Shown in pieces: positions 13,395-18,945 of a stretch of 64,000 nt of DNA (positions are counted from its first letter, which is position 1; each line of letters begins with the position of its first letter). This DNA comes from Salinilacihabitans rarus (lineage in GTDB: Archaea > Halobacteriota > Halobacteria > Halobacteriales > Natrialbaceae). Under the pieces are notes generated by a model. It saw only the letters and a list, made by a program, of their open reading frames with translations, did not search any database and was not told the origin of the DNA. The position numbers and the translations under genes are program-made. The stretch covers positions 1 through 64,000 of the forward strand of contig NZ_CP100762.1 in NCBI RefSeq assembly GCF_024296665.1, written 5' to 3'.

Positions 13395-14027
13395 ATGGAC
13401 ATTTCGCGACGGGCGTTCGCGAAGCGCGCGGCGGCGACGACGGCGCTCGTGGGCGTCGCCGGCTGTATCGGTGACGGCGACGACGACGAGTTCGAGCTAT
13501 CCGGCGATGACGTCCTGCCGCCGGCGGTCGCCGGCGATCCGGACGCCGACGTCACCGTGATGGCCTTCGAGGACTTCAGCTGTCCGCACTGCGCGCAGTA
13601 CGCGCTGGGCGTCTACCCGCGGATCGAGGCCGCGTACGTCGACCCCGGCCACGTCAGGTACGAACACCGCGACTTCCCAATCCCGGTCGACGAGACGTGG
13701 TCGTGGGCCGTGGCGGGCGCGGCGCGGTCGGTCCAGGAACGTGGCGGCGACGAGGCGTTCTGGCCGTTCGTAAGCGAGATCTACGAACACCTCGGCGACT
13801 ACTCCTACGAGACGATCGCGGCCGTCGCCGACGGGGTCGGCGTCGACGGCGAGGCCGTGGCGGCCGACGCCGAAGAGGGCGCCTACCGGGACGACCTCGA
13901 AGCCGAGCGCGGGCGCGGGGCGGACGCCGGCGTCGAGGGAACGCCCACGGTCGTCGTCGACGGCGAGGTCACCGAGAACTACGAGTGGGAGACCATCGAG
14001 TCGGCCATCGAGGACGCCCTCGAATAG
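13395..14027 (+). CDS. DsbA-family thioredoxin-fold lipoprotein
   Basis: Exported thiol oxidoreductase anchored outside the cell membrane. The 210-residue protein has a Tat signal ([10 protein letters not shown]), a lipobox GVAGC at about 20-24, an acidic linker and a DsbA fold with active site CPHC (in FSCPHCAQY), a helical insert and the cis-Pro loop GTPTVVVDG. It resembles the thioredoxin_4 group that shuffles disulfides in secreted proteins. Transcribed alone. Confidence 0.9.
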
Positions 14028-14075: not shown

Positions 14076-14678
14076 ATGATCCTCTCGGACGCGGACATCC
14101 TCGCCAGACTCGAGGCGGGCGACCTCGTCGTCGACCCCCTCGACGACCCCGACCTGCAGATCCAGCCCGCGAGCGTCGACCTCCGGCTGGACCGGCAGTT
14201 CCTCGAGTTCCGCCGGACGAACATCCCCTGTATCCACCCCGACTCGGCGCGCGAGGTCGACGAGTACGTCACCGAGACGGTCGTCGAGGAGGGCGACGAC
14301 TTCATCCTCCACCCCGGCGACTTCGTCCTCGGGACGACCCACGAGCGCGTCGAGATCCCCCCGGACCTCATCGCGCACGTCCAGGGGCGGTCGTCGATCG
14401 GCCGGCTCGCGGTCGTCGTCCACGCCACCGCCGGCATCGTCGACCCCGGCTACCGCGGCCAGATCACGCTCGAACTCTCCAACCTCGGCACCGCCCCGGT
14501 CGCGCTCACGCCGGGGATGCGCATCTCCCAGCTCATCTTCACCGAACTGCGCACGCCCGCCGAGCGCCCCTACGGGAGCGAGCGCGGCTCGAAGTATCAG
14601 GATCAGGCCGGCCCGCAGGCCTCTCGCATCGGCGTCGACGAGGAGTTCGGCGGCGACGGGCGAGGCGGCGAGGACTGA
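14076..14678 (+). CDS. dcd: dCTP deaminase
   Basis: Converts dCTP to dUTP as the first step of dTMP supply. The 200-residue trimeric dUTPase-fold enzyme shows [19 protein letters not shown] and the core [13 protein letters not shown] with the catalytic Glu, then PGMRISQL and the nucleotide-covering tail [10 protein letters not shown]. Bifunctional deaminase/dUTPase forms exist in archaea; the distinction is not attempted. Convergent with the DyP-like gene. Confidence 0.93.
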
Positions 14679-14706: not shown

Positions 14707-16011
14707 TCAGGCTCCCGGATCGGGCCTCGGCAGTGCCCGGTGGCGCCGCGGCGGGACGAGGTAGCTCCCCCAGCGCCGGAGCCGAACGTACCGGAGGATG
14801 CCGTTGCCCTGCCGCGGGCCGACCCCGTGTCGGCGAAACTCCGCGCCGACCATCGCCCGCCTCGCGCGGGTGAACGCGGCCAGTTCCCGCTGGAGGGAGA
14901 CGAAGTGGAGGCCGGCGACGTCGCCGTCGGTCGTGTTGACGTCGCGCCGGAGCAACGCCGGCTCCCCGTCCTCGCGCGCCCGGGCGACCTTCTGTGCGTG
15001 GCCGACGATACCGTGCTCGCGGGCGTGGTCGTGGGCCTCGTCGGCGACCGCGGCGGCGCCGGCGTCGGTGCCGAGGCGGTCGCCGTACTCGCCGACCGAC
15101 TCCCGCTCGGCGTGGTCGGGGCTGAAAAGCCGCGCGACGCGGTTCTCGTGGGTGCTCTCCTCGAACCACCCCTCCAGATCGAGTTCGAGCGTCTCGAAGT
15201 GCTGTGTCGTGCCGCCGGCGAACGGCCCCTCCCGGATCGTCACCCGATCCTCGGTCGCCTGACTCTCCCGGAACCCCGACCGGAAGCCCATGAAGAACGG
15301 CGCCGCCTCGGGCACCGGTTCGCCCGCCGGGACGCCGTCGAGGCCCTCCTGCCGGGCGGCCGGCAGCCCCGGCCCGACGAACCCCGTCCGGCGGTCCGTC
15401 CGCTCGAAGACCCCGTCGAGCGACGCCGACGGCGACCGGCCGTTGAGCCGTTCGCGGTCGCCGAACAGGGCCTCTTCGACGGCCAGTACCGTGGCGGCGT
15501 CGTCGCTCGCGAGGTGCAAGAGCGCGTCGTTCGCGTCCACGGTCACGTCGCTCTCGGCGGCGAGGACGACGATCGGGTCCGGCTCCGGGAGGGCGACGGC
15601 GTCGAGGGCCGCGTCGTACCGGTCGAAGTACGCCGGCGTGTACCCCAGCGTGAAGAGGACGCCGTCGGGGCGTCGCGCCGTCGCTCGCTCGACCGCGCGC
15701 AGGGCCGTCGCCACGGTCTCGCGGGCCGTGGCGTCCGGGTCGCGCGTCAGCGACAGGCCGAGGAAGACGTGGTGGGCTGGCGGCCTGACGTTGCCGTCCT
15801 CGTCCGTCCGCAACGTGTCGTTCCAGGCGTGCTGTCGCTCGGGGAGCGAGTCGGGGTCCGCGACGCCCGGCGGGGCGTCCACCGACTGCTCGCCCCCGAG
15901 GCAGGCCGCGAGCGCGGCGCTCCCGCCGGTCGCGACCGCCGCGCGCACGAACGCCCTGCGGGACCGGTCCGGCGTCGCGCTCGGCTCCGTCCGGTCGTCG
16001 GTGGGACACAT
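14707..16011 (-). CDS. DyP-peroxidase-like Tat lipoprotein, catalytic Asp lost
   Basis: 434-residue exported protein. It has a twin-arginine signal (DRSRRAFVRAA), a lipobox LAAC at about 34-37 and a body that follows dye-decolourising peroxidases by eye. GFRSG (242-246) aligns with the GxxDG distal motif but has Ser245 for Asp. GGTTQHFETLELDLEGW follows as in the family; His338 (IVGHAQK) matches the proximal haem ligand, LLRRD (353-357) the distal Arg, and AGLHFVSLQREL the closing core. It starts 2 nt after the amine-oxidase-like gene and is surely co-transcribed. Haem could bind, but normal peroxidase chemistry is doubtful. EfeB-like deferrochelatase is an alternative reading. Confidence 0.65.
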   Translation of the reverse strand: MCPTDDRTEPSATPDRSRRAFVRAAVATGGSAALAACLGGEQSVDAPPGVADPDSLPERQHAWNDTLRTDEDGNVRPPAHHVFLGLSLTRDPDATARETVATALRAVERATARRPDGVLFTLGYTPAYFDRYDAALDAVALPEPDPIVVLAAESDVTVDANDALLHLASDDAATVLAVEEALFGDRERLNGRSPSASLDGVFERTDRRTGFVGPGLPAARQEGLDGVPAGEPVPEAAPFFMGFRSGFRESQATEDRVTIREGPFAGGTTQHFETLELDLEGWFEESTHENRVARLFSPDHAERESVGEYGDRLGTDAGAAAVADEAHDHAREHGIVGHAQKVARAREDGEPALLRRDVNTTDGDVAGLHFVSLQRELAAFTRARRAMVGAEFRRHGVGPRQGNGILRYVRLRRWGSYLVPPRRHRALPRPDPGA

Positions 16012-16013
16012 CC

Positions 16014-17933
16014 TCAGTACCCCGAGAGCTCCAGCCGCGCCGTCGTGACGAAGTTCGTCACCCCCGACGGGTGTGGCAGTTGATCGATCGCCCCGAGCAC
16101 GAGCAGCCAGACGATCACCCGCTCCCCCTGGATCGGCTGACCGTCGACGTACTGGGCGGGGTGGTACAGGTGAGAGGGCGTCCCCTCGTCGGACCGCCGG
16201 TGGGCGGCGGCCTCGCCCGGACCGATCTCCGCCCCGTCCCGGCGCACGACGACGACCTCCAGATCGTCCCGCAGGGGAATCTCGACCGCCTCCGGCCCGT
16301 CGGGGTTGCCAAACCGGACGATCGTTCCCGGCTCGCCTTCGAGGTAGAACTCCGCCTCGGGGGTCGTCCACTCCTCGCCGTCGAAGAACTCGACCGTCGC
16401 GCCGTCGTCGGTCCCGGGCGTCACGTCGATCGCCTGCGTCGAGACGTAGTGCTGGACGACCGGCTCCTCGTAGGCGCCGCCCTCCCCGTAGCTCTCGGCG
16501 TTCTCCTCGACTTTCCGGAGGAACCGCGTGACGAAGCCGGGGCCGGTCCGCCGGAAGACCGGCGAGAACACCCCGTCGGCGTAGAACTCGTAGGCGATGT
16601 CGTAGTTGTAGGGGCCAAAGCGGAGCCCGGAGTGAAAGTCCACGCTCTCCCGTCCGACCGCGCTGGAGTGGTAGTGGGACTTCAGCTGGAAGCCACTCGG
16701 CGTGCCGTCGCGGGCCGGAAAGTCGAGTTTCCCGAGCAGCCCCGGGCCGCCGACGGTCGAACTGTGGACGTCCCAGAAGAGGAGGTCGCCGCTGAACACG
16801 GTGTCGTCGTCCGGGAAGTACCACTCGCGGGTGTTCCGTCCCTCCCGCGGGGGCAGGTAGTAGCCGGTGAACGTGATCGGGCTGTTCATCGCCTCGAACA
16901 CGGGACTGCCCCGGTACGACGCGGAGAGGGTGACGCCCTGCGCGTCGGGGGGCTCCCACTCGACCGCCCACTCGTCCTGCTCGAACGACTCGTCGGGGGG
17001 TTCGATCCGGTGGTAGCCGTCGTTGGCCGTGTAGTACGGGCGCTGCTCGGTCGGCACGTCCGGGACGGCGTCGAGCACCGACTCCGCGGCCGGTTCGATC
17101 GTCTCGACGAGTTCGTAGAGCGGGTACTCCACGGCGTGGTCGAGGACGGCGACGTCCACGACGACGGGGTTCTGCGGGTCCGAGCCGTCGACGAACGCGC
17201 TGATTATGCGTACGTCGTCGCCGTCTTTCACGTGCATCACCGCGGTCCCGCCGTGGCCGTGACGGAGGTCCGCCTGCCCGAGTCCGGTGTAGCCCCCGGC
17301 CGCGCCCTTCCACGACGGGTACCACTCCCGCTCGCTCACGTCCCCGAGGGCCTCCCGGACCGGCTCGGCGTCGTGGATCGCCTGCCCGAGCGCCATCTGG
17401 TAGGCGTTCTGGGTCACCGTCCAGCCGACGTCCTGCGGGTCGGTGATCTCGAGTGCGACGATCTCGTCGCGGCGACGGTCGACGAGCCCGTAGACCGTCC
17501 GCCGGTTCTCGGCCGTGACCTCGAACTCGGCCTCGTCGCCGTCCGGGAAGCCACGCTCGCGCACGGTCAGCGAGGTCGGCCCCTGGAGGCTGATCGTCTC
17601 CAGGTGGTTCGTGAGCACCTCGTACGCCTCGAAGGTCCCGATCCAGTCGCCGACGAGGTCGTGGACCTCGGGGTCGGCGAGGAGCGTCTCGATCGCCCGC
17701 CGCTTCCGGGTGGCGTGCAGTCGCTCGTAGGTGTCGTTGTCGAACTGCCGGGCGGAGGCGAAGTCGGCGGTGTCCATCCGGAGCGAGGGGATTCCGTCGG
17801 CTGTCGACTCGCCGTCCGGATCCGAGATCCGCGACGGATCGTCGGGTTCGCCGGACTCGGTACAGCCCGCGAGCGCCGCGACGCCGCCGAGCGCCGCGAC
17901 CGCGACGTAGTCGCGTCGGGAGAGGTCGCTCAT
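16014..17933 (-). CDS. Copper-amine-oxidase-like Tat lipoprotein, copper ligands eroded
   Basis: 639 residues, with Tat signal LSRRDYVAVAAL and lipobox ALAGC (20-24). The region 60-200 resembles the N2/N3 domains of copper amine oxidases and 290-639 the catalytic domain. PYNYD (441-445) matches the topaquinone motif, with Tyr444 as cofactor precursor, followed by FYADG and RRTG as in the family. The downstream HxH copper pair reads VQH (His495 kept, Val493 replacing His) at the usual 51-residue spacing. The third copper-His site, in the segment VIVWLLVLGAIDQLP, appears to be Asp617. It may therefore not be a normal amine oxidase. First gene of a coupled pair with the DyP-like protein. TATA-like CTATACCC lies about 27 nt upstream. 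Confidence 0.65.
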   Translation of the reverse strand: MSDLSRRDYVAVAALGGVAALAGCTESGEPDDPSRISDPDGESTADGIPSLRMDTADFASARQFDNDTYERLHATRKRRAIETLLADPEVHDLVGDWIGTFEAYEVLTNHLETISLQGPTSLTVRERGFPDGDEAEFEVTAENRRTVYGLVDRRRDEIVALEITDPQDVGWTVTQNAYQMALGQAIHDAEPVREALGDVSEREWYPSWKGAAGGYTGLGQADLRHGHGGTAVMHVKDGDDVRIISAFVDGSDPQNPVVVDVAVLDHAVEYPLYELVETIEPAAESVLDAVPDVPTEQRPYYTANDGYHRIEPPDESFEQDEWAVEWEPPDAQGVTLSASYRGSPVFEAMNSPITFTGYYLPPREGRNTREWYFPDDDTVFSGDLLFWDVHSSTVGGPGLLGKLDFPARDGTPSGFQLKSHYHSSAVGRESVDFHSGLRFGPYNYDIAYEFYADGVFSPVFRRTGPGFVTRFLRKVEENAESYGEGGAYEEPVVQHYVSTQAIDVTPGTDDGATVEFFDGEEWTTPEAEFYLEGEPGTIVRFGNPDGPEAVEIPLRDDLEVVVVRRDGAEIGPGEAAAHRRSDEGTPSHLYHPAQYVDGQPIQGERVIVWLLVLGAIDQLPHPSGVTNFVTTARLELSGY

Positions 17934-17954
17934 CGTGACGCCGTACGCCGCCCG

Positions 17955-18017
17955 GGTATAGTTTGGTTGGGGCGTTTCTCAGGCGCCGCCGGGGCCGCGG
18001 AGGACCCACAGTTATCC
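17955..18017. promoter_or_regulatory. Divergent promoters: amine-oxidase-like operon and thiR-like gene
   Basis: GGGTATAGTTTGG at 17960-17972 reads leftward as the TATA element for the start at 17933. CAGTTATCCCG near 18007-18017 serves the rightward start at 18046. No shared palindrome is evident between them. Confidence 0.4.
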
Positions 18018-18045
18018 CGAGTGCGGCCGTACCCCCAGCGTACGA

Positions 18046-18945
18046 ATGAAATTCGTCGAAGAGATCGTCGTGGAGGAGTTCCTGCCGACGCTGCGCTCGC
18101 TGCTGGCCGGCGAACTCCGCGACCGCGGGCTCACCCAGAGCGAGGTGGCCGAGGTGCTGGGGATCAGCCAGAGCGCCGTCTCGAAGTACGCACACGGCGG
18201 CGTCACGACGAACGACCGGATCGCCGACGACGAGCGCGTCCGCGACCTCGTCGAGCGGCTGGCCGACGGACTCGCCGACGGCCACGTGACGCCCGCGCAG
18301 GCGCTCGTCGAGGCCGAGGTGCTGATCCGCGAACTCGAAGCCGGCGGCGACCTCCTCGCGCGCCTCCACGAGGAGGCCGTCCCCGAACTGGCCGACCACG
18401 ACGCGAGTTTCCGGGTTCACGACCCCGACAGCGACGTCCGCACGAGCGAGCGGGTCCTCTCGTCGCTCCGGCGCGGACTGCGCATCCTGAAGAACGCGAG
18501 CGGCTTCGCGGGGCTCATCCCCGCGGTCGGCTCGAACCTCGTCGCCTGCGTCCCCGACGCGACCGACGTCGACGACGTCGCGGGCGTCCCCGGACGGATC
18601 TTCGACGTGAAAGGTCAGGCGCGGGTGCCCGCGGACCCCGAGTTCGGCGTCTCCGAGCACGTCGCGACCGTCCTGCTGGCGGCCCGGCGCCACGGCAGCG
18701 ACGCCGCCGCGGCGATCAACGTCCGGTACGACCCGGAACTGCTGGCCACGCTGGAAGAGCAGGGACACGTCCTCGCGGAGTTCGACGAGTCCGGCGACGT
18801 CGCCTCCAGCGTCGGCGCGGCGATCGAGGAGGTACCCGAGGCGTCCGTCCTCTACCAGACCGGCGGCCAGGGGATCGAGCCGTTGACCTACGTGCTCGGC
18901 CCGGACGCCGAGTCCGTCGCGGACGCGGTCCGGGCGCTGCTCTGA
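18046..18945 (+). CDS. thiR: HTH-ThiN transcriptional regulator (ThiR-like)
   Basis: 299-residue fusion. The N-terminal XRE-type helix-turn-helix (LTQSEVAEVLGISQSAVSKYA, about 29-49) is followed by a helical linker and a C-terminal ThiN domain (about 125-299). ThiN domains are thiamine-phosphate synthases; fused to HTH they form the archaeal ThiR family of repressors that sense thiamine phosphate. A ThiR role fits the thi4 gene 7.5 kb away. The ThiN core AAAAINVRYDP is present, so residual enzyme activity cannot be excluded. Followed after 1 nt by a methyltransferase. Confidence 0.75.
   Translation: MKFVEEIVVEEFLPTLRSLLAGELRDRGLTQSEVAEVLGISQSAVSKYAHGGVTTNDRIADDERVRDLVERLADGLADGHVTPAQALVEAEVLIRELEAGGDLLARLHEEAVPELADHDASFRVHDPDSDVRTSERVLSSLRRGLRILKNASGFAGLIPAVGSNLVACVPDATDVDDVAGVPGRIFDVKGQARVPADPEFGVSEHVATVLLAARRHGSDAAAAINVRYDPELLATLEEQGHVLAEFDESGDVASSVGAAIEEVPEASVLYQTGGQGIEPLTYVLGPDAESVADAVRALL

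Follow-up and report, generated by a model that had tools for sequence, protein, structure and literature searches.

A haloarchaeal lipoprotein pair with a copper amine oxidase fold and a DyP-related partner: a candidate surface redox unit

Copper amine oxidases (CAOs) are textbook quinoproteins, and their copper triad is regarded as strictly conserved. Amine oxidation is also coupled to a small blue-copper carrier in the methylamine dehydrogenase/amicyanin system, which uses a tryptophan tryptophylquinone (TTQ) cofactor, and in Escherichia coli the tynA-feaB-paa genes constitute the phenylethylamine route. Among the DyP-type heme peroxidases, EfeB (deferrochelatase) is exported by the twin-arginine translocation (Tat) pathway. 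Here we analyse two adjacent genes of the haloarchaeon Salinilacihabitans rarus, located in a 64,000-nucleotide stretch (contig NZ_CP100762.1, positions 1 to 64,000, hereafter the window), which encode a protein with a CAO fold, P0001, and a relative of the DyP peroxidases, P0002. Judged by their sequences, neither is a canonical enzyme, and the pair and its relatives point to a surface system for amine oxidation of a kind not yet described.

P0001 resembles the CAOs (PF01179; e.g., AGAO, 1avk, and ECAO, 1oac) in its fold, which extends over model residues 176-639 with Z of about 20-23, and in having a Tyr at the topaquinone (TPQ) position. It differs from them in its low identity (~15%), in remaining undetected by Pfam, and in belonging to a family without the H-x-H motif, with the third copper His missing in 55 of 59 relatives and with a broken TPQ consensus. 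P0002 has in common with the DyP peroxidases, including EfeB/deferrochelatase (PF20628; 7qyq, 8olp, 2gvk), a ferredoxin-like N-terminal half, Dyp_perox_C similarity in the C-terminal half, the proximal His and the distal Arg, and Tat export is predicted for it as is known for EfeB. Unlike them, it is an archaeal lipoprotein of a separate Pfam family, DUF7405, which has Ser or Ala in place of the GXXDG Asp. Around the pair, no EfeU or EfeO gene was noticed in the window, although no dedicated search for them was made. An earlier reading of this DNA from its letters alone (the original prediction) had known of no described system of such form, and none turned up in one open-access library, which also yielded no literature on DUF7405 or on an amine dehydrogenase working with halocyanin.

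Layout and inheritance of the gene pair

The pair consists of two minus-strand open reading frames (ORFs) of 639 aa (P0001) and 434 aa (P0002), at the positions predicted for them (Table 1). The original description, of genes separated by 2 nt and both encoding a Tat signal and a lipobox, agrees with the ORFs, with the DNA between them and with both N termini, where an RR (Tat) motif precedes a hydrophobic segment and then the lipobox Cys (P0001, RRDYVAVAALGGVAALAGC; P0002, RRAFVRAAVATGGSAALAAC). Both patterns are of the Tat-exported lipoprotein type, which predicts anchoring at the cell surface. A long ORF in another frame (14707-18768, minus strand) was discarded as a high-GC artefact. The host genome (3.62 Mb) carries one additional DUF7405 gene, at 1,863,471, and no canonical CAO was found in it.

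Among 391 haloarchaeal genomes, strong matches to the CAO-like family of P0001 occurred in ~50 and DUF7405 in 346. One monophyletic clade of CAO-like genes, with 18 distinct loci from at least 11 genera and three families, has a DUF7405 gene downstream, on the same strand and at most 46 nt away, in all its loci. For the window, adjacency was read directly from the DNA, as our neighbour-listing script gave no DUF7405 there, the longest ORF start overlapping P0001. The RR motif and the lipobox are retained in all 18 P0002 relatives of the close clade and, by script, in 17 of the 18 P0001 relatives; for the eighteenth (L080), the script caught an upstream stop-to-stop extension of the ORF, and the alignment shows RRDYLKMAALGGGVTAIAGC. 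The DUF7405 copies from paired loci group in a clade of their own with support 1.0, separated from the canonical ones, and the two gene trees are congruent (Mantel r 0.91 on pairwise tree distances, a value reached in 0 of 5000 permutations). Since the trees agree and adjacency holds in 18/18 loci, the pair is a co-inherited unit; the same two results rule out chance adjacency. How often the two genes are neighbours was a check that the original prediction itself had proposed, and its idea of a conserved pair is upheld.

Canonical DUF7405 genes behave differently: no CAO-like gene lies less than 1.5 kb from any of the 30 loci inspected. A second DUF7405 copy is present in 14 of the 17 searched genomes of the paired clade, so that the paired copy is usually an extra paralogue. 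No DUF7405 relatives were found in viral contigs. The surroundings of the canonical genes (L032-L061) may represent a metal or cytochrome-maturation cluster.

Folds and active sites of the two proteins

P0001 matches no Pfam or NCBIfam family. Its AlphaFold model, built on a 21-sequence alignment of related genomes, is of moderate confidence (pLDDT 67, pTM 0.71). A Foldseek search of the PDB with this model retrieved CAOs as all top 50 matches (best E 1.3e-14), and VIA-align placed model residues 178-639 on 1avk with Z 22.9 (343 residues, root-mean-square deviation 4.3, 15% identity). The modelled structure thus confirms that P0001 has the fold of CAO domain 3 and of the beta-sandwich catalytic domain, as had been proposed by eye. 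This claim rests on the structure model because sequence profiles alone miss the homology: hhalign gave non-significant probabilities against 14 haloarchaeal CAOs (2.7%) and against 24 CAOs (2.8%), an hmmsearch of the PDB retrieved no CAO, and the Pfam CAO family matched none of 30 family members. Of the two fold checks that the original prediction had suggested, structure prediction supports the fold of P0001 and profile-profile comparison by itself is non-significant for it. Neither of the two outcomes named there as refuting the prediction came about. In the records viewed, PGAP labels the CAO-like genes 'hypothetical protein'.

Known CAOs share the consensus T-x-x-N-Y-D/E, three strictly conserved copper His and a catalytic Asp (PMC3382800). 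All 24 of our reference CAOs keep N-Y-D/E, and all 24 have the three copper-binding His. The best local profile-profile segment between the two families is the TPQ strand, which aligns without gaps (P0001 GPYNYDIAYEFYADGVFSPVFRRTG with CAO GNYDY...DG...TG). When the register was scanned over shifts of -12 to +12 against 24 CAOs, the one placing Y442 at TPQ scored 0.92 per column and all others -0.35 or less, the register that uses the NYD Tyr (Y444) being the one at -0.35. The topaquinone motif of the original prediction therefore survives in part: a Tyr does occupy the TPQ position, but it is Y442, and the Tyr of the proposed NYD lies two residues off register. The consensus around it is broken (RFGPYNY, with Pro for N and Asn for D/E).

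The register of the copper site is less certain than that of TPQ. At the equivalent of the H-x-H motif, position 493 is His in none of the 59 relatives and position 495 in 24 of them, H495 being His in the paired clade. According to the model and these alignments, P0001 is a CAO in fold and not in its canonical active site. Other residues are strongly conserved. Y442, Y444 and H422 are retained together in 52 of the 59 relatives and lost jointly in the other seven, which make up one clade (L029, L088, L097, L098, L139, L142 and L145) in which the remaining protein is retained; several of its members lie near small paired proteins (~108 and 170-190 aa) without known family. H390, H420, D432, H434 and H591 are near-invariant except in the most distant branch. 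We infer that these residues, together with D388, probably constitute the working site of the family, whichever chemistry it performs.

P0002 belongs to DUF7405 (PF24152) with E 2e-143 and 477.9 bits, against a cut-off of 27.1. Because its model is poor (pLDDT 39, only 8 sequences), its C-terminal half included, its fold rests on Foldseek and VIA for the N-terminal half and on Pfam matches of relatives for the C-terminal one. The Foldseek matches of this poor model were nearly all DyP, and VIA gave Z 9.5 for residues 76-214, in the N-terminal half. Dyp_perox_C was matched by 6 of 18 DUF7405 family members (best 3.6e-6), with the paralogue from the same genome above the cut-off; a phmmer search of the PDB with this paralogue retrieved no DyP. 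PGAP annotates one P0002 relative, from Natronococcus CG52, as a Dyp-type peroxidase. Together with an invariant H338, these matches bear out the DyP kinship and proximal His proposed originally. P0002 is a relative of DyP-type heme peroxidases that keeps the proximal His and the distal Arg, lacks the distal Asp and may bind heme.

These sites bear on the simplest possible function, put forward by the original prediction, in which an ordinary topaquinone/copper enzyme would yield H2O2 and the DyP protein would use it up. Such a pair would account for the CAO fold, the TPQ-position Tyr, the DyP relative in the adjoining gene and the His at one of the three copper positions (H495) in the paired clade, yet it is very improbable given the missing H-x-H and third His, the unmet N-Y-D/E consensus and the absence of the DyP distal Asp across DUF7405. 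From the original interpretation, the folds, export, lipid anchoring and adjacency stand, the NYD register does not, and the simple H2O2 chemistry is unlikely.

Table 1 Positions in the window of the gene pair and of the residues discussed.
Feature	Position	Strand	Evidence
P0001, CAO-fold Tat lipoprotein, first gene	16014..17933	-	ORF, model, Foldseek, VIA-align
P0002, DUF7405 DyP-peroxidase-like Tat lipoprotein, second gene	14707..16011	-	PF24152, Dyp_perox_C, Foldseek, VIA
Gap of 2 nt between TGA (P0001) and ATG (P0002)	16012..16013	-	DNA reads TAC TGA GG ATG
Lipobox Cys C24 of P0001 (LAGC)	17862..17864	-	Sequence
Lipobox Cys C37 of P0002 (LAAC)	15901..15903	-	Sequence
Y442 of P0001, topaquinone-position Tyr (GPYNY)	16608..16610	-	Ungapped strand match, register score; 52/59 relatives
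H422 of P0001 (SHYH)	16668..16670	-	Retained or lost with Y442: both in 52/59, neither in the same 7
D388 of P0001 (FWDVH)	16770..16772	-	Invariant in 59/59 relatives
V493-Q494-H495 of P0001, equivalent of CAO H-x-H, first His lost	16449..16457	-	Colinear low-confidence alignment
D617 of P0001, approximate place of third CAO copper His	16083..16085	-	His in 4/59 relatives
H338 of P0002, proximal heme ligand position	14998..15000	-	Invariant 32/32; aligned with DyP His in 7qyq
R356 of P0002, distal Arg position	14944..14946	-	Invariant 32/32
S245 of P0002, at distal Asp of DyP GXXDG	15277..15279	-	Ser/Ala in 32/32 DUF7405 proteins

Neighbours of the unpaired relatives and candidate functions

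The unpaired relatives of P0001 have partners of other kinds. Halocyanin (PF00127) adjoins ~17 CAO-like genes outside the paired clade, in most cases divergent and no more than ~600 bp away, and a cupredoxin domain is fused at the N terminus of the CAO-like protein in three cases detected by profile and in a fourth recognised by eye. An aldehyde dehydrogenase (ALDH) gene lies within ~4 kb of a CAO-like gene in eight loci, the positions coming partly from a script that omits any gene sharing a few bases with the CAO-like gene; in Haloarcula sinaiiensis, the order annotated by PGAP is halocyanin, hypothetical, ALDH. On plasmid pHrrPV6 of Halorubrum PV6 (L166), the CAO-like gene, annotated as hypothetical, occurs with ALDH, halocyanin, paaC, paaD and another phenylacetic acid catabolic gene; an IS6 transposase is found there between the CAO-like gene and halocyanin. 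An ammonium transporter (Amt) gene follows three distant CAO-like members, and a pyrroloquinoline quinone (PQQ)-type sugar dehydrogenase is present at two. Three distant CAO-like proteins (L206, L207 and L208), whose genes precede one for an ammonium transporter by ~1 kb, have PYRY replacing PYNY. Finally, one locus (L146/L205, G334:C2:110700-128600) combines a DUF7405 gene, halocyanin, a divergent 722-aa CAO-like protein and an amino-acid-type permease; as its DUF7405 falls outside the paired clade, it represents a second, apparently independent association. These counts include related genomes, and the neighbourhoods are phylogenetically correlated.

Two described systems resemble these arrangements. 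With methylamine dehydrogenase/amicyanin, the halocyanin-linked relatives would share the coupling of amine oxidation to a small blue-copper carrier, although fold and cofactor are unrelated and the partner in the window clade is DyP-like and not a cupredoxin. The Halorubrum PV6 locus recalls the E. coli tynA-feaB-paa genes in joining a CAO-fold gene, an ALDH gene and paa genes, and differs in that its CAO-fold gene belongs to the non-canonical family and halocyanin is present; nothing of this arrangement is seen near the window pair.

Because of the halocyanin, ALDH, paa and Amt genes near the relatives, which the original prediction could not take into account, we favour a role in redox and amine chemistry over pure binding; the second option of that prediction, derived binding proteins built on these two scaffolds, is nevertheless conceivable. 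Our tentative proposal is that the pair forms a surface redox unit whose CAO-fold member would be an amine dehydrogenase or oxidase, with halocyanin as outlet in the relatives and the DyP-like protein as outlet here. P0001 would oxidise an amine-type substrate outside the cell at a modified or relocated active site made of Y442, H422, D388 and their neighbours, and the electrons (or, with O2 as acceptor, H2O2) would pass to the tethered DyP-like heme partner. In unpaired relatives, a fused or adjacent blue-copper halocyanin would take this outlet role; aldehyde dehydrogenase could deal with the aldehyde so formed, and ammonium uptake with the ammonia. Such an amine-oxidising system would explain together the CAO fold, the retained Tyr, the carriers and the catabolic neighbours, and the lost copper site is in keeping with a tethered carrier having replaced O2 as electron acceptor.

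Extended to the family, the proposal becomes doubtful, if still conceivable: a haloarchaeal family of CAO-fold amine dehydrogenases would have given up the canonical copper site to feed electrons from amines to tethered carriers. In several branches the carrier would be halocyanin, either fused to the protein or adjacent; the branch of the window would use a heme lipoprotein of DyP descent as electron acceptor or peroxide sink. The site of these dehydrogenases, centred on Y442, H422, Y444 and D388, could hold a new protein-derived cofactor. If true, a CAO fold with a TPQ-position Tyr and no copper ligands, repeatedly paired with blue-copper or heme carriers, would allow the capacity of this fold for dehydrogenase chemistry to be tested, give a function to DUF7405 and help to explain how some haloarchaea use amines.

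Several results weigh against an amine-oxidising role. In known CAOs, both TPQ biogenesis and catalysis need copper held by three His (PMC3382800), and the canonical triad is not kept in the P0001 family, as judged from its 59 relatives. At the position of the catalytic-base Asp, the best, low-confidence alignment has an invariant Pro (P374), with the next residue, 375, varying between D, T, N and E. None of the 32 DUF7405 proteins examined retains the distal Asp of DyPs. Lastly, no halocyanin, ALDH or amine gene lies within 8 kb in any of the 18 paired loci, so the link to amines comes via the relatives only.

The foremost alternative, which we consider rather unlikely, is that the pair handles metal or heme. 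The CAO-fold protein would bind copper or iron through D388, H390, H420, H422 and H434, and its DyP-like partner would play an EfeB-like part in acquiring metal or in supplying halocyanin and other extracellular redox proteins with copper. This would suit a family in which the copper triad has gone while several other His and Asp have become near-invariant, as well as the recurrence of canonical DUF7405 genes beside DUF7350/P19-type Fe2+ transport proteins, SCO1/SenC, TlpA-like thioredoxins and CcdA-like genes, and the weak DUF7405 profile matches to deferrochelatase EfeB. Halocyanin is itself a copper protein and often neighbours the CAO-like relatives; its fusion to the CAO fold, however, reads more easily as electron transfer. 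The ALDH, paa and Amt neighbours of the relatives are catabolic rather than metal genes, and no metal gene was noticed alongside the paired clade.

Alternatively, both proteins could be pseudoenzymes, that is, catalytically dead scaffolds forming a pair for surface binding, sensing or structure. We regard this as unlikely: the copper ligands, the TPQ consensus and the DyP distal Asp are indeed all gone, and the fold persists in the seven-member subclade without Y442, Y444 and H422, but the retention of these three residues and of D388 in 52 relatives across very distant subfamilies would be unexpected for a dead site. Nor would dead scaffolds readily account for a heme-ligand His and an Arg invariant in 32 of 32 proteins, or for the recurrent association with blue-copper carriers. 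Pseudoenzymes and the ordinary CAO-peroxidase pair are less likely than the amine-oxidising and metal-handling readings.

Other genes near the pair and outside the haloarchaea

Some 0.7 kb past the end of the pair, the window encodes a further Tat lipoprotein, a DsbA-like thioredoxin (13395-14027, plus strand), and a dCTP deaminase gene (14076-14678, plus strand) lies between the two. A CAO-like protein 45% identical to its haloarchaeal counterpart is encoded on a contig of an Armatimonadota metagenome-assembled genome (JAVKKH010000007.1; L086), reflecting either transfer or a binning error; it was the sole match among 43 genomes of that phylum.

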